The notes under the pieces were generated by a model. The model did no database searches. It was not told where the DNA came from and saw only the letters and a list, made by a program, of their open reading frames with translations. DNA of 64,000 nt, taken from NCBI RefSeq assembly GCF_900537075.1, contig NZ_UNRA01000001.1, positions 954,191-1,018,190 of the forward strand. The letters are read 5' to 3'. The stretch is from Tropicibacter sp. Alg240-R139 (GTDB lineage: Bacteria; Pseudomonadota; Alphaproteobacteria; Rhodobacterales; Rhodobacteraceae). Below are positions 2,463 to 23,922 of the stretch, piece after piece. Position 1 is the stretch's first letter. Every line of letters starts with the position of its first letter. The translations under genes were made by a program, and so were the position numbers.

Positions 2463-2881
2463 GGCATCACCGAAACACTAAAGCTGATTTCAAAGCGGAC
2501 ACCCCGAATGCGCTCACGCGGCATCTCGTCGCCAAACAGGCAGAGCCAGCGGGCCGACAGTTCGATCGGAGTGCCGTCCTCCGTCAGCAGCGGTGCGTTC
2601 GCGTCATCCAGGAACGCCCAGCCTTCGGTTGTTGGATCGGGCATGTAGAAGGTGCCGGAGCCATGGCCGGTCATCTCCGTCAGGAAATTGTCAAAGACCG
2701 CCTTTTCCGAGCGCTCAACCTTGATCATCAGCGACACCTGGCGCGCCACATTGGACCAACCGCGCCGATAGCCGGGCAAGCCCTTGTCCGCCTTGCGCTT
2801 GAGGCGCGGGTCCATGTCCTGCGCCTGCCACCCCGATCGGGTGGGGCGCGGCAGTGTCTCTGGCCAAACCGCCGGGCTCAT
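2459..2881 (-). CDS. Phage minor tail protein (gpM-like position)
   Basis: 140 residues with no recognised catalytic motif. The middle contains a GSGTFYMPDP stretch and the end an RFEISFSVSVMP beta-rich tail, in keeping with small tail-tip proteins between the tape measure and the gpL-like protein. It overlaps both neighbours by ATGA. The function is inferred from gene order rather than from sequence. Confidence 0.65.
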   Translation of the reverse strand: MSPAVWPETLPRPTRSGWQAQDMDPRLKRKADKGLPGYRRGWSNVARQVSLMIKVERSEKAVFDNFLTEMTGHGSGTFYMPDPTTEGWAFLDDANAPLLTEDGTPIELSARWLCLFGDEMPRERIRGVRFEISFSVSVMP

Positions 2882-3489
2882 CGTTTCGGCCCCTGTGGTT
2901 TCAGCCCGTATTTCTGCTTCAGCGTCTTGCGGGCACCACCGCCCGGAAGGTCGATGGCTTCAGCAACCTTGGACGACAGGCCAAATACGAATTTCCGCCC
3001 ACCATCAGCCTCACGCTCTTCCCCTTCAAACTTGGTTTGAACGCCCGATGAATAGTCGTTGAAGACGAATGTGTGAGCGCCGCCAGATGCACTACGAAGT
3101 GAGCCAGCGGCGGTACCCGCCACGGAAAGGGGGCCACCATTTGCGAAGCGGGGCAGGGTTCGGTTGCGAACGGCTTCCATGAAGTCGTGCCCATAATAGG
3201 CGACGGAGGCTTCTAGCTGCATGAACTCGCCAGCAGAGCCCCAGAACAGAATATCGTCCTGCTTGGGGCCGCCACGCCCGGCAAGCAGCCCGGCAGCCTG
3301 CCCGCCCATTTGCAGATCACCGCCACCCGCCAGGCAGGGGAGAGCGCTCAATGTCCGCAATGCAGGCAGCGAACGCAGCATGTCGGCACCGCATCGAGCG
3401 ACCGCAATGGGCCGTTCGGGCGGCTTTGCAAAGCCCGCTCTCTGCGCATCGCCACTGCTCAGGCAATGTTTCAAACTCCGTTTGAACAA
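2878..3489 (-). pseudogene. C-terminal remnant of a tail tape-measure protein
   Basis: Open for 203 codons from a TTG at 3489, but only the part from about residue 55 looks like phage protein. It has a Gly-rich run, then a GGPKQDDILFWGSAGEFMQ stretch followed by a YGHDFMEAVRNRTLPRFANGG stretch. That pattern is typical of the C-terminus of lambda-type tape-measure proteins. A real tape measure is usually 600 residues or more, so the bulk is missing. The first ~50 residues are Arg/Pro/Cys-rich and probably out-of-frame or foreign sequence. The remnant marks where the tail module was cut. It may still be translated and coupled to the next gene (ATGA overlap). Confidence 0.7.
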
Positions 3490-3550
3490 ACTCTACGCAG
3501 GGCAGGTGCGACCAAGAGCCTGACCTCCCCAGGTGTGTGGGTCTCTCCGA

Positions 3551-3812
3551 TTAGGTGGCGATAGTGGCGATGGACTTGAAGACAGCGGTCCCTCCCACGC
3601 CGCCCGTGGTGCAGATCCATCCCAAGTCTCCGCCGGGTGTGGGGGTATCGTTCCAGATCACGTCAGCGGCCACTTAGATCACGTCAGAATCGTTCGACAC
3701 GGCGTCTGCCACAGTGTGCGTTAGGTCGCCGAACTGTTTGAAGTTCGAGCAACCCTGCACCCGGCCGTTGATCACTTTGAAATAATGTTCGTAGGATGAG
3801 CCAAGACCACAC
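3551..3812 (-). pseudogene. Degenerate phage/tail-fibre-like fragment with internal stop
   Basis: Reading leftwards, one frame gives about 44 residues including GRVQGCSNFKQFGD, then a TAA. The same frame then continues for about 40 residues, through DVIWNDTPTPGGDLGWICTT to FKSIATIAT and a stop at 3551-3553. The PTPGGDLGWICTTGG pattern resembles C-terminal caps of phage tail-fibre or beta-helix proteins. No start or upstream body is present. Together with the truncated tape measure this marks the eroded edge of a prophage. The exact parent protein is not identified. Confidence 0.5.
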
Positions 3813-3970
3813 TCTCTCTATCAAATCACCCTATTTGAACCCATTGGCATTGACGTCAGACATTCGGTTCTAGGACGAAGGGCAATTTGGACGTCGATGA
3901 CACGAGGCAAAGTGTTTGCCGTTGCTTTGACGCATTGACGCGGGCGGCAGGGGGTGGTCACCCTGCGGGC

Positions 3971-6757
3971 ATGACCACACCGCTGCACATATCCCGGACG
4001 CCCCGACCTTTTGACACTGACCTTGGCAGTGAAACGTTAGACCGTTATCCCGCGCTGTCGCCCGAGCGAGCCGCGTTAATTGCTGGCACGGCAGGTAGCA
4101 GTCCCTATCTGAAGGGCGTGTTGGAGCATGAGTCTGAATGGTTGGCCGAGGCGTTGGATGATCCCGAGGGCGCAGTGGCACGTGTATTTGCTGATTGCCG
4201 AGCGCTGCCCTTTGATCAGCTCAAGCCGGGGCTGCGGCAAGCCAAGAGACGGATTGCGGGGCTGACAGCCTTGGCAGATCTGTCAGGCGGTTGGCAATTG
4301 GAGCAGGTGACGGGCGTGCTCACCGATTTTGGCGCGCTTGCTGCGGATGTGGCGGCCAAGGGCGAAATTGCCAACTTGATCCGCCGAAAGAAGCTGCCGG
4401 GTCAGGTCGAGGATGATGTCGAAACGGCCGGTGGTATGGTCATTCTGGCTATGGGGAAGATGGGCGCGCATGAGCTGAATTACAGTTCCGACATCGACCT
4501 GATCGTGCTCTTTGATGAAACCCGCTATGACCCGGACGATTTCTATGAGGCCCGCCAGGGGATGGTGCGCGCCACGCGAAACTTCTGCGCTACTCTCAGT
4601 GACCGAACGGCGGATGGCTATGTGTTTCGGACTGACTTGCGCCTGCGTCCTGATCCGGCGGTGACGCCTGTTTGCCTCGCGACCGAGGCGGCTGAGAGGT
4701 ATTACGAAAGCCTTGGACGCACTTGGGAGCGAGCTGCTTACATCAAGGCCCGTGCCTGCGCCGGCGATATCGCAGCGGGCGAGCAGTTTCTGCAAACGTT
4801 GACGCCCTTTGTCTGGCGGCGGCATCTGGACTTTGCCGCCATCCAGGACGCCCACGACATGCGTCTGCGCATCCGTGAGAACAAGGGCACTGGTGGGCCG
4901 ATCACGGTGCCCGGCCACGACATGAAGCTGGGTCGTGGCGGTATTCGTGAGATCGAGTTTTTCACACAGACGCGCCAGTTGATTGCAGGCGGTCGGGACC
5001 GTGATCTTCGGGTGAGGGGCACCGTGCCGGGGCTTGCGTCACTGGCGGACAAGGGTTGGATTCCACAGGACGTGGCCGAAAAGCTCGCCGATCACTACCG
5101 AGCACATCGCGATGTCGAGCATCGCATCCAAATGATTCATGACGCCCAAACCCACAGGGTGCCCAAATCCCAGGATGGGATGGAACGTGTGGCCTGTCTG
5201 ATGGATCTGAATTTGGCCGACTTGCAAGCCGAGCTCAAAGAACGCCTGACCGAGGTGCATGACTTGACCGAAGGGTTCTTTGCGCCTGATGCGGCGCCAA
5301 TTCCCGCACCTGAATCCGTGCCGGTGACGTTTGACACCGACGTCATTGCCCGGTGGCCCACCTATCCGGCGCTCCGGTCACAGCGGGGCGCGCAGATTTT
5401 CGAACGTATCAAGCCCGAGTTGCTGTCGCGCTTGTCGCGTACCGCCAAACCTGACGAGGCGCTGATGGCTTTGGACGGGTTTTTGTCGGGGCTGCCTGCC
5501 GGAGTGCAGCTGTTTTCTTTGTTCGAAGCCAATACACAGCTCATTGACCTGTTGGTGGATATTGTCGGCACTTCGCATGCTCTGGCGAGTCATCTGTCGC
5601 GCAATGCGTCCGTGTTTGACGCCGTCATTGGCGGTTCGTTCTTTGACGAGTGGCCAGGACAACAGGCCCTCCAGGCTGAACTCTCCGAGGCTTTGGGGGC
5701 CGAGGGCGACTATGAACGCCAACTCGACATGGCGCGACGCTGGACCAAGGAATGGCATTTCCGCATTGGAGTGCATCACCTGCGCGGATTGATCGACGGG
5801 GCCACGGCTGGACACCAGTATTCCGACCTGGCCAGTGCGGTGATCGCCTCGGTTCTTCCGATCGTCACGGCGCAGTTCGAGGCCAAACATGGGGCTGCAC
5901 CGGGGCGCGGCATGACGGTTTTGGGTATGGGATCGTTGGGGGCTGAACGGCTTAATTCCACCTCTGATCTGGACTTGATTGTGATCTATGACCCGCAAGA
6001 GGTCGAAATGTCAGATGGCAAGCGCCCTTTGTCAACACGACCATACTTTGCGCGTTTTACGCAGGCGTTGATCACGGCGTTGACTGCGCCCATGGCGCAA
6101 GGGCGGCTTTATGAGGTGGACATGCGACTGCGTCCATCGGGCAGCCAAGGGCCGGTTGCCACGAGTTGGAGCAGCTTTGCCAACTATCAGCAGAACGAGG
6201 CGTGGGTTTGGGAACATCTGGCGTTAACCCGAGCGCGCGCCGTAGCGGGCGATCAAACTCTTGGTGAGGATATCGAGGGGTTCCGGCAAGAATTGCTGAA
6301 GCAACCGCGAGACCGTTCAAAGGTATTGACCGAGGTGACCGAGATGCGGGCGCGTCTTGCTGCTGCCAAGCATCCTACAGGCATTTGGGACGCCAAGACC
6401 GGTCCGGGCCGGATGCTGGATATTGAACTGATGGCGCAGACCGGAAGCCTGTTGGCGGGCAATCCTGCGCGCGATGTGCACTCAGGTCTTGATGCGGCGG
6501 TCGCTGTTGAGGTGCTGAATGTCGCGCACGCTCAAACCTTGAAACAAGCCTATGACCTATGCTGGTCAGTGCAAACGGCGGGACGATTGCTGTCGGGGCA
6601 GGGCATCGAAGTCGAAAAGATCGGCGAGGGTGGCGGCGCATTTCTGTGCCGCAGTGCCGGGTTCGAACAGCTTGGGGACCTCGAGGGGGTGTTGACCGAC
6701 GGTTATGCACAGGCGGATGTGGTGATCACTGCAGCATTGGAGAAGGGGCAGAGATGA
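3971..6757 (+). CDS. glnE: Bifunctional glutamine synthetase adenylyltransferase/deadenylyltransferase
   Basis: 928 residues from the ATG at 3971. The frame is open from 3887, but the upstream codons look non-coding. Two nucleotidyltransferase domains are visible: a GMGKMGAHELNYSSDIDLIV motif near residue 160 and a GMGSLGAERLNSTSDLDLIV motif near residue 648. Each has the G-S-x-D-x-D metal-binding pattern. The N-terminal copy normally removes AMP from glutamine synthetase and the C-terminal copy adds it, under PII control, matching GS activity to nitrogen supply in the cytoplasm. Length is normal. The next small gene overlaps the stop by ATGA. Confidence 0.97.
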   Translation: MTTPLHISRTPRPFDTDLGSETLDRYPALSPERAALIAGTAGSSPYLKGVLEHESEWLAEALDDPEGAVARVFADCRALPFDQLKPGLRQAKRRIAGLTALADLSGGWQLEQVTGVLTDFGALAADVAAKGEIANLIRRKKLPGQVEDDVETAGGMVILAMGKMGAHELNYSSDIDLIVLFDETRYDPDDFYEARQGMVRATRNFCATLSDRTADGYVFRTDLRLRPDPAVTPVCLATEAAERYYESLGRTWERAAYIKARACAGDIAAGEQFLQTLTPFVWRRHLDFAAIQDAHDMRLRIRENKGTGGPITVPGHDMKLGRGGIREIEFFTQTRQLIAGGRDRDLRVRGTVPGLASLADKGWIPQDVAEKLADHYRAHRDVEHRIQMIHDAQTHRVPKSQDGMERVACLMDLNLADLQAELKERLTEVHDLTEGFFAPDAAPIPAPESVPVTFDTDVIARWPTYPALRSQRGAQIFERIKPELLSRLSRTAKPDEALMALDGFLSGLPAGVQLFSLFEANTQLIDLLVDIVGTSHALASHLSRNASVFDAVIGGSFFDEWPGQQALQAELSEALGAEGDYERQLDMARRWTKEWHFRIGVHHLRGLIDGATAGHQYSDLASAVIASVLPIVTAQFEAKHGAAPGRGMTVLGMGSLGAERLNSTSDLDLIVIYDPQEVEMSDGKRPLSTRPYFARFTQALITALTAPMAQGRLYEVDMRLRPSGSQGPVATSWSSFANYQQNEAWVWEHLALTRARAVAGDQTLGEDIEGFRQELLKQPRDRSKVLTEVTEMRARLAAAKHPTGIWDAKTGPGRMLDIELMAQTGSLLAGNPARDVHSGLDAAVAVEVLNVAHAQTLKQAYDLCWSVQTAGRLLSGQGIEVEKIGEGGGAFLCRSAGFEQLGDLEGVLTDGYAQADVVITAALEKGQR

Positions 6758-7035
6758 TGGGTGAACGGGACATGTTGGACCCCAAGGGGCTGATCCGCGA
6801 ATCCTATCGGATCGAGGGTATCGTGGCATCGCAATGCCGCAGCATCTTTTTGGACTGGGCGCTGAGCCTGCCGGACGGTCAGGATTCGCGTGATGCGATC
6901 ACTGCGCTATTGGACCGTTATGCGGACCAGCCTGATGACCATCCGATGACTGTCGTTCTGCGTCAGGGGTTGGCTGAAATGAAATCTCCAAAGCGTCGAG
7001 GGGGCTGGCGCTCAAGACCTAGGAGCCAGGTTTGA
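6754..7035 (+). CDS. Small conserved-looking hypothetical protein downstream of glnE
   Basis: 93 residues from the ATG at 6754, which overlaps the glnE stop (ATGA) and has AAGGGG a few bases upstream. The sequence includes an RESYRIEGIVASQCRSIFLDW stretch and ends in a basic tail. I do not recognise a named domain. The overlap and the ribosome-binding site argue for a real gene co-translated with glnE. A role in nitrogen control would be guesswork. Confidence 0.7.
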   Translation: MMGERDMLDPKGLIRESYRIEGIVASQCRSIFLDWALSLPDGQDSRDAITALLDRYADQPDDHPMTVVLRQGLAEMKSPKRRGGWRSRPRSQV

Positions 7036-17495: not shown

Positions 17496-18695
17496 ATGGA
17501 ACTGAGTGGTCAAAAAGTCATCGTCGTGGGTGCCGGTGTTGGCGGTCTGGTTGCGGCCCTGGCGTTTCGTCAAAAGGGTGCCGATGTCACCGTACTGGAA
17601 CAGGCCGAAGCCATTTCCGAAGTGGGGGCAGGTCTGCAGATCAGCCCCAATGGCGGCGCAGTGCTACAGGCTCTGGGTTTAGCTGACTGCTTGGCGCGGG
17701 GCTCGGTTCGGGCCGAGGCTGTGCAACTGCGGGACTATCGCCGGGGTAAGCCCGTGGTGACATTGGACCTGGCCCGCTTTGCCGCTGATCAAACCTATCT
17801 GTTCGTGCACCGCGCCGATCTGATCGGTGTTCTGGCAACGGCGGTGCGCAAGGCGGGCGCACAAGTGCGGTTGTTGCAACGGATGGATCACGTTGTGCCG
17901 GGGCGCGTTCCTGCCGTGTCTCTGGCCAACGGGGCGCAAATGCAGGCGGATCTGATTGTGGGCGCTGATGGGCTGCATTCCAAAGCCCGCACTGCACTGA
18001 ATGGTGACGCCGAGCCTCAGTTCACAGGTCAGGTGGCGTGGCGGGCAACCGTGCCCAATGATCTCGGCCTGGGGCCGCAGGCACAGGTTTTCATGGCACC
18101 GCATAGGCATCTGGTGTGCTATCCCTTGCGTGGCGGCGATCTGGTCAACATCGTTGCGGTGCAAGAGCGCGCGGCTTGGGTCGCCGAAGGGTGGAACCAT
18201 CAGGATGACCCGGATGCGCTGCGCGAGGTTTTTTTAGATTTCGGCGGGCAGGCGAAACAGTTGCTTGATCGGGTCGACCAAGTGCACCTGTGGGGGCTGT
18301 TCCGCCATCCGGTGGCCGAACGCTGGCATGGTGATGGTTTGGCCATCCTGGGCGACGCCGCGCATCCGACGCTGCCATTCCTGGCGCAGGGCGCCAATCT
18401 TGCGTTCGAAGATGCCTGGACGCTGGTCGACAGTCTTGCCCAAGCCGGATCACAAGCCGAAGGGCTGTCGCGATATCAAAGCCGCCGCCGTGACCGCGCC
18501 GTGCGCGTGATCGAAGCCGCCAACGGCAATGCCTGGAAATACCACCTGAGCTTTCCGCCCGTGCGGTTTGCCGCCCACACGACCATGCGGCTGATGGGAC
18601 GGTTTGCACCCGAAAAGATGGTCAGCCAATTTGACTGGCTCTATCGCCACGATGTGACGGATCAGAGGTCCAGTTCAACCCAGACCGGCACGTGA
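17496..18695 (+). CDS. FAD-dependent monooxygenase (salicylate/3-hydroxybenzoate hydroxylase-like)
   Basis: 399 residues from the ATG at 17496, with AGAGG upstream. An N-terminal GAGVGGL dinucleotide motif binds FAD, a DLIVGADGLHSKAR motif lies mid-protein, and the second FAD motif AILGDAAHPTLPFLAQGAN is near residue 285. This is the group A aromatic hydroxylase fold, which uses NAD(P)H and O2 to hydroxylate aromatic rings. The substrate cannot be read from sequence. No aromatic-degradation genes are adjacent. Its 3' end overlaps the convergent xthA gene by 34 bp. Confidence 0.9.
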   Translation: MELSGQKVIVVGAGVGGLVAALAFRQKGADVTVLEQAEAISEVGAGLQISPNGGAVLQALGLADCLARGSVRAEAVQLRDYRRGKPVVTLDLARFAADQTYLFVHRADLIGVLATAVRKAGAQVRLLQRMDHVVPGRVPAVSLANGAQMQADLIVGADGLHSKARTALNGDAEPQFTGQVAWRATVPNDLGLGPQAQVFMAPHRHLVCYPLRGGDLVNIVAVQERAAWVAEGWNHQDDPDALREVFLDFGGQAKQLLDRVDQVHLWGLFRHPVAERWHGDGLAILGDAAHPTLPFLAQGANLAFEDAWTLVDSLAQAGSQAEGLSRYQSRRRDRAVRVIEAANGNAWKYHLSFPPVRFAAHTTMRLMGRFAPEKMVSQFDWLYRHDVTDQRSSSTQTGT

Positions 18696-19468
18696 TCTGA
18701 CGGTTTCTCGCGTCCGCGCACTTCGGCGTCGATCTGGCAATCCTGCAGCAGGTCAGCCGCAGTTGGTGTTAGAAGGAAATGGTCGATGCGGATGCCGTCG
18801 TTGCGGTTCCAGGCGCCCGCCTGATAATCCCAGAACGAGTAATGCCCCGGACCTTGGGTTCGGGCGCGAAACGCTTCGGTAAAGCCCAGGTTCAAGATCC
18901 GGCGATAGGCAGCACGGCTTTCGGGGCGATGCAACGCATCCTCTAACCAGGCTTCGGGGCGTTTGGCGTCTTCGGCCTGTGGGATGATGTTGTAATCACC
19001 CGCCATCAGGGCAGGGGTCTCGTCTGCCAACAGCTCTTGCGCGCGGGCATACAGCCGATCCATCCAACGCAGCTTGTAGTCGTATTTGCCGTCGGGCATG
19101 GGCGAGCCGTCCGCTTGCAGCTCGACCGGGTTGCCGTTGGGCAGATACAGCCCACAAATCCGCAGCGCCTGTTTGCCCACCACAGTTGCCTCGATCCAGC
19201 GGGCCTGTTCGTCGCTATCATCACCCGGCAACCCGCGCGAGACATCCTCGAGCGGGAGTTTCGACAGGATCGCCACACCGTTAAAGCCCTTTTGACCGTG
19301 AGTTTCCACATTATAGCCGCGCTCTTCGAACAGCTCGCGAGGGAACGCCTCGTCCACGGATTTGATCTCTTGCAGTAGCACTACATCTGGTTGCGCTTCG
19401 TCCAGCCAGGCGGGCAAGGCCTGCGCGCGTGCTTTGATGCCATTGATGTTGAAGGTGGCGATTTTCAT
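18662..19468 (-). CDS. xthA: Exodeoxyribonuclease III
   Basis: 268 residues from the ATG at 19468 (MKIATFNINGIKAR). Motifs of the exonuclease III/AP endonuclease family are in order: NGIKAR, LLQEIK, GYNVETHGQKGFNGVAIL, CGLYLPNG, AGDYNI, IDHFLLT and the C-terminal SDHVPV. The enzyme cuts at abasic sites and removes 3' blocks during base-excision repair. The upstream frame extends to 19750, but that part looks non-coding. The 3' end overlaps the convergent monooxygenase gene. Confidence 0.95.
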   Translation of the reverse strand: MKIATFNINGIKARAQALPAWLDEAQPDVVLLQEIKSVDEAFPRELFEERGYNVETHGQKGFNGVAILSKLPLEDVSRGLPGDDSDEQARWIEATVVGKQALRICGLYLPNGNPVELQADGSPMPDGKYDYKLRWMDRLYARAQELLADETPALMAGDYNIIPQAEDAKRPEAWLEDALHRPESRAAYRRILNLGFTEAFRARTQGPGHYSFWDYQAGAWNRNDGIRIDHFLLTPTAADLLQDCQIDAEVRGREKPSDHVPVWVELDL

Positions 19469-19835
19469 GGTGGGCCTCCGGCTGAGTGCGGTTTGATCTA
19501 TCGCCGATGTGCGAGGACAGAGCAAGCGTTGGATCAGGAGAATCGGGGCAGGGGATTCGACCGGAATGGGGCCGAAATGTGACCGCAGTGTTATGTAATT
19601 AGAATTCAACCATGGGCAGAAAAAGGCAGAAAGCCATGAGAAACAGTGCTGTGGATAAGAATTTTTGTTCGACCCTCGGAAAGTTAAGAGTCCAGCTTTG
19701 CCATGTTTCTGCCCAATTTTCTTAATGTGGACAACTTTTGTTACCCACACCCTGTGATTGAAAAACTATTTTGAGATTCTCGTTTAAGCTGCAAGCGTGA
19801 AAGGGCATTCAACTTCGCAAAATAAGGAATTGACC
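19469..19835 (+). promoter_or_regulatory. Upstream region of the MFSSGS-repeat gene, with DnaA-box-like sites
   Basis: A 367-bp AT-rich gap between the divergent xthA and repeat-protein genes. TGTGGATAA at 19650-19658 is an exact match to the classic DnaA box, and TGTGGACAA at 19726-19734 differs by one base. GGGCAGAAA (19614-19622) and TTTCTGCCC (19706-19714) form a widely spaced inverted repeat around the first site. TTGAAA near 19758 with TTTAAG about 19 bp on is a possible promoter. AAGGA precedes the ATG at 19836. Confidence 0.35.
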
Positions 19836-20315
19836 ATGTCTGCTCAGCACAAGATCACCGCCACCACCGAAGCTCTGATCACTGGCCGTAACAGCCTGTT
19901 TGATGGCGAGGGCACTCAGATGTTTTCATCCGGATCCGCCCCCACAATGACCACCGATGCCTTTGGTGGTGACGCGACCGAAATGTTCTCGTCCGGTTCT
20001 GCGCCCACCCTGACCACCGAGGCCATCACAGGCGACGCGGTCGAAATGTTTTCCTCGGGCTCCACGCCTGTCACCACCTCTGCCACAGCTGGTGACCTGG
20101 TGCAAATGTTCTCGTCAGGGTCCGCGCCTGTAGCCGGCGCTGACGTAATCACCGGTGAAGGCACGCAGATGTTTTCGTCAGGTTCCGCGCCTTCGGCCAG
20201 CGCAGGTGCGACCACCGGCGAAGGCACTCAGATGTTCTCATCGGGTTCTGCACCGGTTGCCACGGCGGACACCACCGCGGGCGACGGCACCCACATGTTC
20301 TCATCGGGCAGCTGA
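19836..20315 (+). CDS. Tandem-repeat protein with seven MFSSGS hexapeptides (putative peptide precursor)
   Basis: 159 residues from the ATG at 19836, with AAGGA upstream. A 28-residue leader (MSAQHKITATTEALITGRNS then LFDGEGTQ) is followed by six units of 20-21 residues. Each opens with an invariant MFSSGS, then (A/T)P and a Thr/Ala-rich spacer ending in an acidic-polar motif such as GEGTQ. A seventh MFSSGS is the exact C-terminus. There is no signal peptide or transmembrane segment. The layout (leader, repeated invariant hexapeptide, variable spacers, end on the core) resembles multi-core precursor peptides. A repetitive structural protein is the main alternative. A family of unknown function may cover it (DUF6749 by uncertain recall). 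No cysteine is present. Confidence 0.85.
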   Translation: MSAQHKITATTEALITGRNSLFDGEGTQMFSSGSAPTMTTDAFGGDATEMFSSGSAPTLTTEAITGDAVEMFSSGSTPVTTSATAGDLVQMFSSGSAPVAGADVITGEGTQMFSSGSAPSASAGATTGEGTQMFSSGSAPVATADTTAGDGTHMFSSGS

Positions 20316-20347
20316 TCTGACGCGCATGTCCTAAATGTTGAAACGGG

Positions 20348-20364
20348 GGCGTTCAGGTAACGCC
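20348..20364 (+). other. Small hairpin between the repeat gene and the next gene
   Basis: GGCGTT-CAGGT-AACGCC forms a perfect 6-bp stem 33 bp after the repeat-gene stop and 21 bp before the next start. There is no good T-run, so it is more likely an mRNA-stability element or attenuator than a full terminator. Confidence 0.45.
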
Positions 20365-20385
20365 ATTTGAAACGGAGACCACCCC

Positions 20386-21459
20386 ATGACAAATGTGATC
20401 CACCTGAACGCGCCTGTTCAACGTTTGGACCCAAATGTGCGCAATGCCAATCTGGTGGCTGGCTTTGCCCGCCACCGGAGGTTCGGTGACGATGTGTTCT
20501 GGCTGAAAGAGAACGCGGAACTGCTGAATATTTTGGAATGCACCGGCTTGCCACTCACCGATGACGCCCTGGCCCCGCATCAGGGGTTTTATGACCGGAT
20601 CGAACAGCGGCTGGGGTTTTTCCCGCAATATTATCGCTTTCTTCTGTCGATCTGCCTGGATCTTGAGGATCTGGGAATGGATGGGTCCAAAGGAGAGGCC
20701 CTGTGCCACTGGATCGCCCGTGAGGGGGTGGCCGAGGCAGAGCTGTCGGACCTGCAACGCGCCGAAGCCCGGCGTTTGCTGGCACGGCGTGGCGTGGACA
20801 GCGGCGCAGATGACGGTCTGACCGAGCGCCTTCATGCATTTGTTAACCGTTCCGAAACTTTTGCGTTGCCCAATAAGAAAGCGGCGTACGAACTGACCCA
20901 CATCCTGTTTTACCTAAGCGAATACGGCCGCCGCGACCCGCAGGTGTCTGAACAGGCGATCACCAGCTTGGAGTATGCCGGACTGTTGGCCTATCTCGAT
21001 CAAAACGCCGATTTGTTGGCCGAGGTCTGCGTCGCCATGCGCTATGCCGGAGTTGCTCCGCCGCCTATCTGGGAGGGGTGGATCGAACGTGAAGTCGCCC
21101 GGTTCGCCATCCAGACCGAGGATCATGCTGATCCGCAAGACGATTATCACGACTTTTTTGTCTGCAACTGGCTGATGGCCATGTCGGGGCGCGAGGCGTT
21201 CAAACACACCGCCGGGGACACGAGAGTAAGCTTTCACCGCGCCAGCCACTGGCCGGGGCCGCTCCGGGACATGTCGGAATGCCTGTTCCAGCTTGACGAC
21301 CACCGCTGCGAGGATTGGCAAGTGATGCGCTTGCGGGTTGAACCGTCACTCAGCGAGATCGGTCATGATATACTGGCCGAGGCTGAGGAAAGCACCACTA
21401 AATTTGACAAATTTTTCAGAGCCTTCTCGCGGACTGGGCTGCGTGGAGTGGCTCTATGA
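20386..21459 (+). CDS. Helical protein of unknown function, partner of the MFSSGS gene
   Basis: 357 residues, with a GGAGA ribosome site before the ATG. It is predominantly helical with no signal peptide. Visible features are RHRRFGDDVFWLKENAELL near residue 30, AAYELTHILFYLSEYGRRDP near 165, PPPIWEGWIE near 225, and a His/Asp-rich stretch (DDYHDFFVCNW, SFHRASHW) near 250-285. The THxLFYxxxYG motif recalls all-helical toroid proteins linked to peptide biosynthesis, but this is a weak impression. A family of unknown function may cover it (DUF6902 by uncertain recall). Co-transcription with the repeat gene and 4-base overlap with the transporter gene suggest a modification or handling role. That is inference. 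Confidence 0.8.
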   Translation: MTNVIHLNAPVQRLDPNVRNANLVAGFARHRRFGDDVFWLKENAELLNILECTGLPLTDDALAPHQGFYDRIEQRLGFFPQYYRFLLSICLDLEDLGMDGSKGEALCHWIAREGVAEAELSDLQRAEARRLLARRGVDSGADDGLTERLHAFVNRSETFALPNKKAAYELTHILFYLSEYGRRDPQVSEQAITSLEYAGLLAYLDQNADLLAEVCVAMRYAGVAPPPIWEGWIEREVARFAIQTEDHADPQDDYHDFFVCNWLMAMSGREAFKHTAGDTRVSFHRASHWPGPLRDMSECLFQLDDHRCEDWQVMRLRVEPSLSEIGHDILAEAEESTTKFDKFFRAFSRTGLRGVAL

Positions 21460-22355
21460 AGGTTTCACTTACTGGCGCGTTTCTGGTCTCGCTTTACACT
21501 ATTCTGATTTCCTCTGCCGATGCAATTACCAAGCTGATTGCGGGCGGCTATGCGGCACCACAACTGTTCTGCCTATCTGGTTTGATCGTCGTTGCGCTCA
21601 GCCTGCTGGTGGATCGCTTGCCTTCGCAGCGTCAAGGGCTGCGCACCTGCAGCCCTTGGGCGATGGCGGTGCGGTCAGGGGCCACAGTGATGGCAGCGAT
21701 TTGTTTTTTCAATGCTTTTGGAGCTTTGCCCTTGGCGGATGTTTTTCTGTTCATAGGGTTGATGCCGCTGTTGTCGGGGCTGATGTCGGGTCTGATCCTG
21801 AGCGAGCAAGTACGCCCGTCGACCTGGTTTGCACTGACGGCGGGGTTCATTGGGGTGCTCAGCCTCTTTCCCGGTGGGTTGCCAGCGATCACGACCGGCC
21901 ATCTGTCTGGCTTGGGGGCCGCTGTTTTCGGGACACTTTCGATCGTGATGTCGCGTTACATCGGGCGGCATGAGTCGAACGTGCTGGCGCAGCTGTTTTA
22001 TCCGAACCTGGCACTTTTTGGTGCCATGGGGGCGGCGCTGCCCTTTGTCTGGGTGCCGATGCCACTATCTGACTTGGCGTGGATCTTTGTCTATGCGGTC
22101 GTGCTGTTTTCGGCCCGCTGGGTTTTGGTCCTGTCGCTGCGCAACCTTGCAGTCTATGTGGTGACGCCCCTGATGAACCTGCAATTTGTCTGGATGGTGA
22201 TCCTGGGCGCGGTGTTCTTTGGCGAATTACCCACGACCGCGACCCTGTTGGGGGTGGCGATTGTCATGGCCTCGGGGCTCTATCTGGTATGGGAACAATT
22301 CGCCCCGAAAGACGCCGGAAATATTCTGACGTATAACTTCAAGACAGATCCGTAA
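21456..22355 (+). CDS. DMT-superfamily (EamA) transporter coupled to the repeat-protein cluster
   Basis: 299 residues with about ten hydrophobic segments in two EamA repeats, typical of the drug/metabolite transporter superfamily in the inner membrane. The start overlaps the stop of the preceding gene (ATGA), so translation is coupled. DMT proteins usually move small metabolites or amino acids, so export of a small processed product from the cluster is conceivable but unproven. Its stop lies 9 bp from the convergent erpA stop. Confidence 0.9.
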   Translation: MKVSLTGAFLVSLYTILISSADAITKLIAGGYAAPQLFCLSGLIVVALSLLVDRLPSQRQGLRTCSPWAMAVRSGATVMAAICFFNAFGALPLADVFLFIGLMPLLSGLMSGLILSEQVRPSTWFALTAGFIGVLSLFPGGLPAITTGHLSGLGAAVFGTLSIVMSRYIGRHESNVLAQLFYPNLALFGAMGAALPFVWVPMPLSDLAWIFVYAVVLFSARWVLVLSLRNLAVYVVTPLMNLQFVWMVILGAVFFGELPTTATLLGVAIVMASGLYLVWEQFAPKDAGNILTYNFKTDP

Positions 22356-22364
22356 GATTTTGTT

Positions 22365-22688
22365 TTACATCGAAAATGAAGTGCCGCACCCGCACGACGA
22401 TGTGGCATTTGGATTCTCAATTACAAAGCGCGCGCCGATCAGCTCTTCGGTGAAATCAATCACTGCATTTTCCAGAAATGGCAACGATACGGCATCGACA
22501 ACAACCTTCTCGCCCTGACCTTCAAGGATCAGGTCCTCCGCTTCTGGCGCGTCCAAGGCAATCTCGTATTGAAAGCCGGAACACCCGCCACCTTCGACGG
22601 CCACGCGCAGGGCTTGGCCCTGATTGGACGCGCCGATTTCGGCAAGGCGGGCAAAGGCGCGGTCTGTGACTTTGGGAGGCAGTTTCAT
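22365..22688 (-). CDS. erpA: Iron-sulfur cluster insertion protein ErpA (A-type carrier)
   Basis: 107 residues from the ATG at 22688 (MKLPPKVTDRAF). The three cluster-ligand cysteines of A-type carriers are present: one in VEGGGCSGFQY and two in the C-terminal SSCGCGTSF. The protein receives Fe-S clusters and passes them to apo-enzymes. It is divergent from dgt across a 79-bp promoter region. Confidence 0.93.
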   Translation of the reverse strand: MKLPPKVTDRAFARLAEIGASNQGQALRVAVEGGGCSGFQYEIALDAPEAEDLILEGQGEKVVVDAVSLPFLENAVIDFTEELIGARFVIENPNATSSCGCGTSFSM

Positions 22689-22767
22689 GCCGGACTCCAA
22701 CGGTTTCTTTGTCGTGCATTGTGCAATATAGAAGTCTCAAGGACAGGCGACAAGGACGAGACTGCAT

Positions 22768-23922
22768 ATGAGGGCAGGTTTTGCCTCGGATCCGAACCAA
22801 GCGCGGGGGCGTCTGGTTCCTGAGGAGGAGAGTAGTTTCCGCTCCTGCTTTATGCGGGATCGGGACCGTATCATTCACGCAAGCGCCTTTCGGCGGCTCA
22901 AGCATAAGACGCAAGTGTTCGTCGAGCACGAAGGCGACAATTACCGCACGCGGCTGACCCATTCGATCGAGGTGGCGCAGGTGGCGCGCACAATTGCGGG
23001 CGCTTTGGGGTTGAACCCCGAACTGACCGAAGCTGTGGCTTTGGCCCATGACCTGGGCCACACGCCCTTTGGCCATACAGGTGAAGACGCACTACATGAA
23101 ATGATGTTACCTTATGGTGGGTTCGATCACAACGCACAGGCTATTCGTATCGTTACCAACCTAGAGCGGCACTATGCCGAGTTCGACGGTTTGAACCTGA
23201 CCTGGGAAACCCTTGAAGCCATTGCCAAACACAACGGACCAGTGACGGGCGACTTGCCTTGGGCCCTGGCCGAATGCAACACCGGTTTCGATCTGGAACT
23301 GCATACCCACGCGAGCGCCGAGGCGCAGGTGGCGGCGTTGTCCGACGACGTTGCCTATAACAACCACGATCTGCATGACGGGCTGCGGGCGGAACTGTTC
23401 ACTGATGACGAGATCGCCGAGTTGCCCATCGTTGGCGAATGTTTCGACGAAGTGGACCGGATGTACCCAAGTACTGATGCCTACCGCAGGCGGCACGAGG
23501 CTTTGCGCCGTGTGTTTGGTGTGATGGTGGGGGATGTGATCGACACGTCCCGAACTCTGTTGGCAAGGTCGGGCGCTGAAACGGTCGAGGATGTGCGCCT
23601 GCTGGGCTATCCGGTGGTGCAGTTCTCCCCCAAACTTTGGGCGCAGCTCAAGGTGATCCGCGTGTTCCTGTTCACCCGCATGTATCGCGCGCCATCGGTG
23701 ATGGTGAAGCGGGCCGAAGTGTCCAAGGTCGTCGAAGAGTTGTTTCCGATATATCTGAATGATCCCAGGCAGATGCCTGCACGCTGGCATGCGGAAATCG
23801 AAGCGGCCAACAGTGAAACTGCGCTGGCACGGATTGTTTCGGACTACATCGCGGGCATGACCGATCGCTTTGCGCTGCAGGACCACGCCCGGCTGACCGG
23901 AAGCGACCCTGCTCGCGTCTGA
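22768..23922 (+). CDS. dgt: dGTP triphosphohydrolase-like protein (HD domain)
   Basis: 384 residues. Early motifs are FRSCFMRDRDRIIHASAFRR and RLTHSIEVAQVART. The HD-domain metal site ALAHDLGHTPFGHTGE is near residue 105, and a later DDVAYNNHDLHDG motif completes the site. Family members hydrolyse dNTPs, mainly dGTP, to nucleoside and triphosphate. Start at an ATG with no overlap. The neighbour downstream is convergent. Confidence 0.93.
   Translation: MRAGFASDPNQARGRLVPEEESSFRSCFMRDRDRIIHASAFRRLKHKTQVFVEHEGDNYRTRLTHSIEVAQVARTIAGALGLNPELTEAVALAHDLGHTPFGHTGEDALHEMMLPYGGFDHNAQAIRIVTNLERHYAEFDGLNLTWETLEAIAKHNGPVTGDLPWALAECNTGFDLELHTHASAEAQVAALSDDVAYNNHDLHDGLRAELFTDDEIAELPIVGECFDEVDRMYPSTDAYRRRHEALRRVFGVMVGDVIDTSRTLLARSGAETVEDVRLLGYPVVQFSPKLWAQLKVIRVFLFTRMYRAPSVMVKRAEVSKVVEELFPIYLNDPRQMPARWHAEIEAANSETALARIVSDYIAGMTDRFALQDHARLTGSDPARV

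Follow-up and report, generated by a model that had tools for sequence, protein, structure and literature searches.

The yeast alpha-factor precursor is a secreted eukaryotic protein that is cut by Kex2. The locus described here resembles it in that a short peptide particular to the species is repeated many times in nearly identical form, with spacers between the copies. However, the alpha-factor system has no modifying enzyme of the DUF6902 kind, and we do not claim homology. The microviridin precursor AMdnA has three cores that are modified by an ATP-grasp ligase, AMdnC (PMC5934393). It is alike in having a single leader, several cores and one processing enzyme (PMC5934393), but here the cores number up to 20, each 4-5 residues long, and the protein beside them is unrelated. 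The only partners in the cassette are a DUF6902 protein and an EamA transporter, with no ATP-grasp ligase, so we rejected a microviridin or other graspetide.

MslH is the C-terminal epimerase of the lasso peptide MS-271. It has two His/Asp pairs, a calcineurin-like fold and Ca(II) (PMC10406935). These pairs are a suggested model for the two conserved histidines of DUF6902, which has a comparable residue set (PMC10406935), but DUF6902 is predicted to be almost all-helical. A DUF6895 protein has also been titled a lasso-peptide epimerase (Shi et al., ACS Catal. 2026; reference 371 in PMC13352647). Going by that title it acts in a lasso cluster, whereas the substrate here would be a multi-core precursor and there is no lasso precursor. 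A lasso peptide cluster was rejected since the lasso protease family PF13471 has no match in the whole genome and the conserved neighbours of the cassette are housekeeping-type genes.

The cassette lies in a 64,000-nucleotide stretch of DNA from Tropicibacter sp. Alg240-R139, which we call the window. We argue that it is a multi-core cassette of the RiPP type with a peptide-modifying DUF6902 protein, and we favour epimerisation as the reaction. This outline is probable as a whole, and the chemistry is its weakest step. A precursor with a dedicated modifying enzyme is very probable. The literature we searched makes no mention of DUF6902 or the core motif. Searches on the motif, on DUF6902 and DUF6895 and on multi-core RiPPs of the Rhodobacteraceae gave only the one DUF6895 title.

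The precursor and its pairing with DUF6902

A preliminary description of this DNA reported a 159-residue protein with a 28-residue leader and seven MFSSGS copies at a period of 20-21 residues, the seventh being terminal. It placed two more genes behind it on the same strand, the last two overlapping by 4 bases. All of this is exact (see the table). The copies start at residues 29, 50, 71, 91, 112, 133 and 154, which is a spacing of 21, 21, 20, 21, 21 and 21 residues. Shuffling the protein 20,000 times never produced a hexamer in more than 3 copies. All seven 18-base core DNAs are distinct and their differences are only synonymous. This implies that selection holds the copies identical, and that they are not the result of recent duplication. 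The highest 15-residue mean hydropathy of the leader is 0.31, near the N-terminus, and M1 and G24 are invariant in the leaders of 57 relatives. Since the leader has no hydrophobic stretch, processing is presumably intracellular. Pfam and NCBIfam searches of the repeat protein gave no match above cut-off, and neither did an Rfam search of window positions 18500-23000.

Features of the cassette in the window
Feature	Position	Strand	Remarks
Repeat precursor gene, 159 aa	19836..20315	+	M-x-A-x-x-K leader start, kept in relatives, backs the start
28-residue leader MSAQHKITATTEALITGRNSLFDGEGTQ	19836..19919	+	Without hydrophobic signal peptide
Core copy 1 (MFSSGS)	19920..19937	+	
Core copy 2 (MFSSGS)	19983..20000	+	
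Core copy 3 (MFSSGS)	20046..20063	+	
Core copy 4 (MFSSGS)	20106..20123	+	
Core copy 5 (MFSSGS)	20169..20186	+	
Core copy 6 (MFSSGS)	20232..20249	+	
Core copy 7 (MFSSGS), flush with C-terminus	20295..20312	+	
Possible hairpin GGCGTT-CAGGT-AACGCC	20348..20364	+	Precursor-enzyme intergenic stretch 20316-20385; read from sequence
DUF6902 protein, 357 aa, putative epimerase-like peptide-modifying enzyme	20386..21459	+	Pfam, conserved residues, profile comparison
EamA/DMT-superfamily transporter, 299 aa, putative exporter	21456..22355	+	4-base overlap with DUF6902 gene

Precursors across species share one layout. An M-x-A-x-x-K... leader is followed by 2-20 F-x-S-x-x cores (median 7) that are joined by variable spacers. 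A G[DE]xx[EQ][ML]-like stretch precedes each core, and AP or GP usually comes next after it. The last core is flush with the end of the chain in 44 of 69 precursors.

The distribution was examined in 296 genomes from the same family, the Rhodobacteraceae. DUF6902 is present in 83 of them (about 28%). A profile built from the precursor leader and first repeats matches 79 of these 83 genomes and none of the 213 that are DUF6902-negative. The p-value for this pairing, 9e-68, ignores shared ancestry and should be taken only to mean that the pairing is strict. Among the four DUF6902 genomes that the profile misses, G189 is a contig-edge fragment, and in G334 (locus L137) the precursor, whose cores are LSPSC, is divergent and was spotted by eye. 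In the other two, G339 (locus L124) and G042 (locus L140), no precursor is visible upstream of the DUF6902 gene. These are possibly decaying or diverged systems. By eye, the repeat protein is directly upstream of DUF6902 in 79 of 81 loci, with a median gap of 64 bp. DUF6902 is rare in a sample of the class outside the Rhodobacteraceae, and a search of plasmids gave zero matches. If our reading is true, a peptide-product system whose genes have no functional annotation is present in more than a quarter of the sampled species of the family.

The idea that all three genes co-occur thus stands for the repeat protein and DUF6902 but not for the DMT gene, which 19 of 81 loci lack. A repeat protein standing by itself, which had been named as a counter-example, was not found. 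None is without DUF6902, and it is the DMT gene alone that is often missing.

The gap between the precursor and enzyme genes holds a possible hairpin. A similar GGCGTT..AACGCC inverted repeat occurs in loci L064 and L113, with a shorter version in L065. It is possible that this is an expression-ratio element, but the case is statistically weak, as the stretch in the window is not more stable than its shuffles (z +1.7) and the mean z for the set is -0.82. The same gap in L132 has a terminator-like hairpin and then a T.

DUF6902 and its DUF6895 relatives

The preliminary description saw no recognised domain in the 357-residue protein. In fact it matches Pfam DUF6902 (PF21843) over profile positions 1-351 of 351, with an E-value of 1.5e-163 and 544 bits against a cut-off of 27. 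It also matches Pfam DUF6895 (E 4.9e-22). A profile-profile comparison of DUF6902 with four DUF6895 proteins (hhalign) gives 95.8% probability and an E-value of 6.7e-9. The two families have the motifs Y-x3-H-x2-F...G, D-x3-E and Y-H in common at about 20-27% identity. Judged from sequence, DUF6902 is homologous to DUF6895, though they share only about 20% identity, which weighs against our reading. The suggestion that the second gene processes or modifies the peptide has some support here, as its family appears to be related to a peptide epimerase, at least as the title of that report has it.

The residues conserved in the window protein are Y168, H172, D209, E213, Y254 and H255. Two His with Tyr, Asp and Glu is the pattern one would expect of an enzyme with two catalytic histidines. 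We infer an enzyme from these residues and the homology, and what is seen directly of a RiPP is the strict pairing of precursor with DUF6902 and the conserved anatomy of leader and core. We propose the following scenario. The first gene would give a cytosolic precursor with a leader and 2-20 identical short cores, which are FSSGS in the window. DUF6902 would bind this precursor and modify every core. The modification would most likely be L-to-D epimerisation of a core residue, with acid/base chemistry through His172 and His255 together with Asp209/Glu213. On the present sequence comparisons we regard epimerisation as evenly balanced between right and wrong.

One can imagine a scenario where the same multi-core precursor and enzyme undergo another core reaction, such as dehydration, acylation, prenylation or some Ser/Thr-directed change, before release and export. 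Most cores have Ser two places after F, and Ser/Thr are plentiful. The AlphaFold2 model of DUF6902 is almost all-helical (pLDDT 94.3), and its best structural neighbours are alpha/alpha-toroid proteins. These include class II terpene cyclases and protein prenyltransferase beta subunits, which would suit such a reaction, but the match extends to non-enzymes such as complement C3d. Most of the VIA-align rows have this fold. The best one has a Z of 12.5 and an rmsd of 3.7 over 222 residues, which is within the helical noise range. Foldseek against the PDB finds no match below E 0.1, and a sequence-profile search of the PDB with DUF6902 gave none. Since the VIA-align score is in the noise and Foldseek is silent, the alpha/alpha-toroid fold is a lead only. 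The core Ser is not absolute either (MMCCS, FTNWC, YIAGL), and the closest homologous family is reported, by title, as an epimerase. We consider another core reaction quite unlikely.

The DUF6895 relatives are worth considering alongside the epimerisation that we favour. Four of them lie outside the Rhodobacteraceae: L149 (Rhizobium sp. CF122), L150, L163 and L164. In all four one or two small precursor-like ORFs are directly upstream of the DUF6895 gene. These ORFs combine a leader-like helical motif with a Trp-aromatic motif close to the C-terminal end, and those of L150 and L163 have two motif copies per chain. This implies that the pairing of the superfamily with precursor-like peptides reaches beyond the Rhodobacteraceae. 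Searching GTDB contigs for DUF6895 recovered nothing beyond the record of the query itself (Rhizobium sp. CF122). In L163, at 4494-6185, the DUF6895 gene comes immediately after one for a precursor-like protein of 138 aa with two repeats (DWTFVSPNYVYK / DWTFISHNYVYK). In L149, at 2637-6888, two paralogous precursor-like ORFs are followed by DUF6895, and a C39/C70-like cysteine peptidase and a methyltransferase-like gene lie upstream. L149 may be a peptide cluster that includes a protease of its own.

Core variation within and between species

All repeat units were aligned on the core, and mean pairwise identity was compared within and between precursors. The F of the core has 0.91 within and 0.80 between, and the Gly six residues ahead of it has 0.91 and 0.84. 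The four residues after F have 0.99/0.37, 1.00/0.65, 0.97/0.33 and 0.97/0.38; the core was chosen as the commonest short word in each precursor, which somewhat inflates the within value and leaves the between value unaffected. The spacer positions have low identity both within and between precursors. On average 92% of the copies in a precursor match its dominant pentamer exactly. Since F and Gly are well kept between precursors they look like recognition marks. The four residues after F are fixed within and variable between, so this is the portion that each species holds constant. The fixed unit is F-x-S-x-x and the Met before it is not strictly kept. The window and three congeners have 7, 8, 9 and 8 copies of the same core, and one of the congener copies is IFSSGS. 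The core is thus the tetra- or pentapeptide (F)xSxx and not the hexapeptide MFSSGS. The expectation that the repeat count would vary while MFSSGS stayed fixed holds for the count and within a precursor, but not between species, where the core differs.

There are 38 distinct cores in 79 loci, including FSSGS, FTSWS, FTSGL, FTTSM, FSSCS, FTNWC, MMCCS, FCSAS, YIAGL and LSPSC. Ten of the assignments, in short or cut precursors, were set by hand. If our scenario is true, DUF6902 has 38 naturally occurring substrate variants from which its specificity could be learned. At least 51 core switches are needed on the DUF6902 tree, where shuffled cores give a mean of 60 and a minimum of 57. Changes in whether the core has a Trp need 6 steps (shuffled mean 16, minimum 14). 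The cores partly track the lineage of the enzyme, yet they switch often, even among near relatives. L070 (FCSAS) and L071 (FSSGS) are near relatives with different cores, and all copies have switched together. Two precursors are mixed. The one in L103 (6120-6536) opens and closes with FSSGS and holds FSTSC/YSTSC in the middle, and the one in L067 (6124-6786) has FSSCS together with VSSCS. These may have been caught midway through a core switch.

Residue 196 of the enzyme (window 20971-20973) is mostly Glu, and is His in most enzymes that are paired with Trp cores. It is Tyr in L094, whose enzyme is near the Trp-core group and whose own core has no Trp. It is possibly a specificity residue, but this is confounded by shared ancestry.

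It must be asked whether this is a structural repeat at all. The protein could serve a structural, binding or adhesive purpose, its repeats forming a fibre or solenoid, with DUF6902 as a chaperone or adaptor. A dominant core period of 20-21 residues across precursors would suit this, and AlphaFold does draw strands in the precursor. However, these are of low confidence. The model of the window precursor has a pLDDT of 53 with zero residues at 70 or above, so the continuous fibrous fold that had been raised as contrary evidence is not confidently predicted. Five precursors (L067, L073, L078, L088 and L128) have extra cores 8 residues apart, a spacing at odds with a regular solenoid. There is also no hydrophobic secretion signal, and it is the positions most constant inside each protein that change from one species to another. 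We rejected the structural repeat, chiefly on the 8-residue spacings and the low pLDDT, and consider it very unlikely. Cores that are fixed within and variable between are what marks a multi-core precursor off from a structural repeat. For a RiPP this pattern is unusual, as are the core size and the copy number.

Export, role and chromosomal site

In the rest of our scenario host proteases would free short modified peptides from the precursor, and the EamA/DMT protein would export them where it is present. No protease is conserved among the cassette neighbours in the family loci. The EamA gene is directly downstream of DUF6902 in 62 of 81 loci and overlaps it in 18. The 19 loci that lack it are mostly bare precursor and DUF6902, and a few are near a contig edge. 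This makes EamA accessory, not obligatory. DMT proteins are known chiefly for exporting amino acids and other small metabolites. We give export of the product by the DMT protein, where there is one, an even chance.

That background could also suggest a scenario where the core is a scaffold from which one residue is turned into an exported small metabolite and the remainder is recycled, which would suit very short cores on which many precursors end, but a constant small product does not need four species-variable residues that are fixed within each precursor, so this scenario is remote.

A peptide that is identical within a species and different between species is what one would predict for a family of peptide products that is uncharacterised. 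Since the core sequence varies between species, a signalling or self/non-self peptide is likelier than a cofactor of fixed chemistry. Even so, a role in signalling or recognition can be put forward only tentatively. If true, species-specific and fast-switching peptides would make signalling or recognition by peptides in the alphaproteobacteria a question that can be put to the test. The fullest version of the argument would be a new RiPP class with D-residue cores of 4-5 residues, an alpha/alpha-toroid epimerase and DMT export, serving as rapidly diversifying species-specific signals of alphaproteobacteria. We consider that version unlikely.

The cassette sits at a fixed site. At 18662-23922 of the window it is flanked by xthA on one side and by an iscA-like gene and then dgt on the other. 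Of the 81 cassette loci, 75 have xthA no more than about 5 kb away. In 15 of 18 DUF6902-negative loci examined xthA adjoins the iscA-like gene, with a gap of 36-1163 bp. Presence or absence at one site, as read from these sequences, fits vertical descent with repeated loss.
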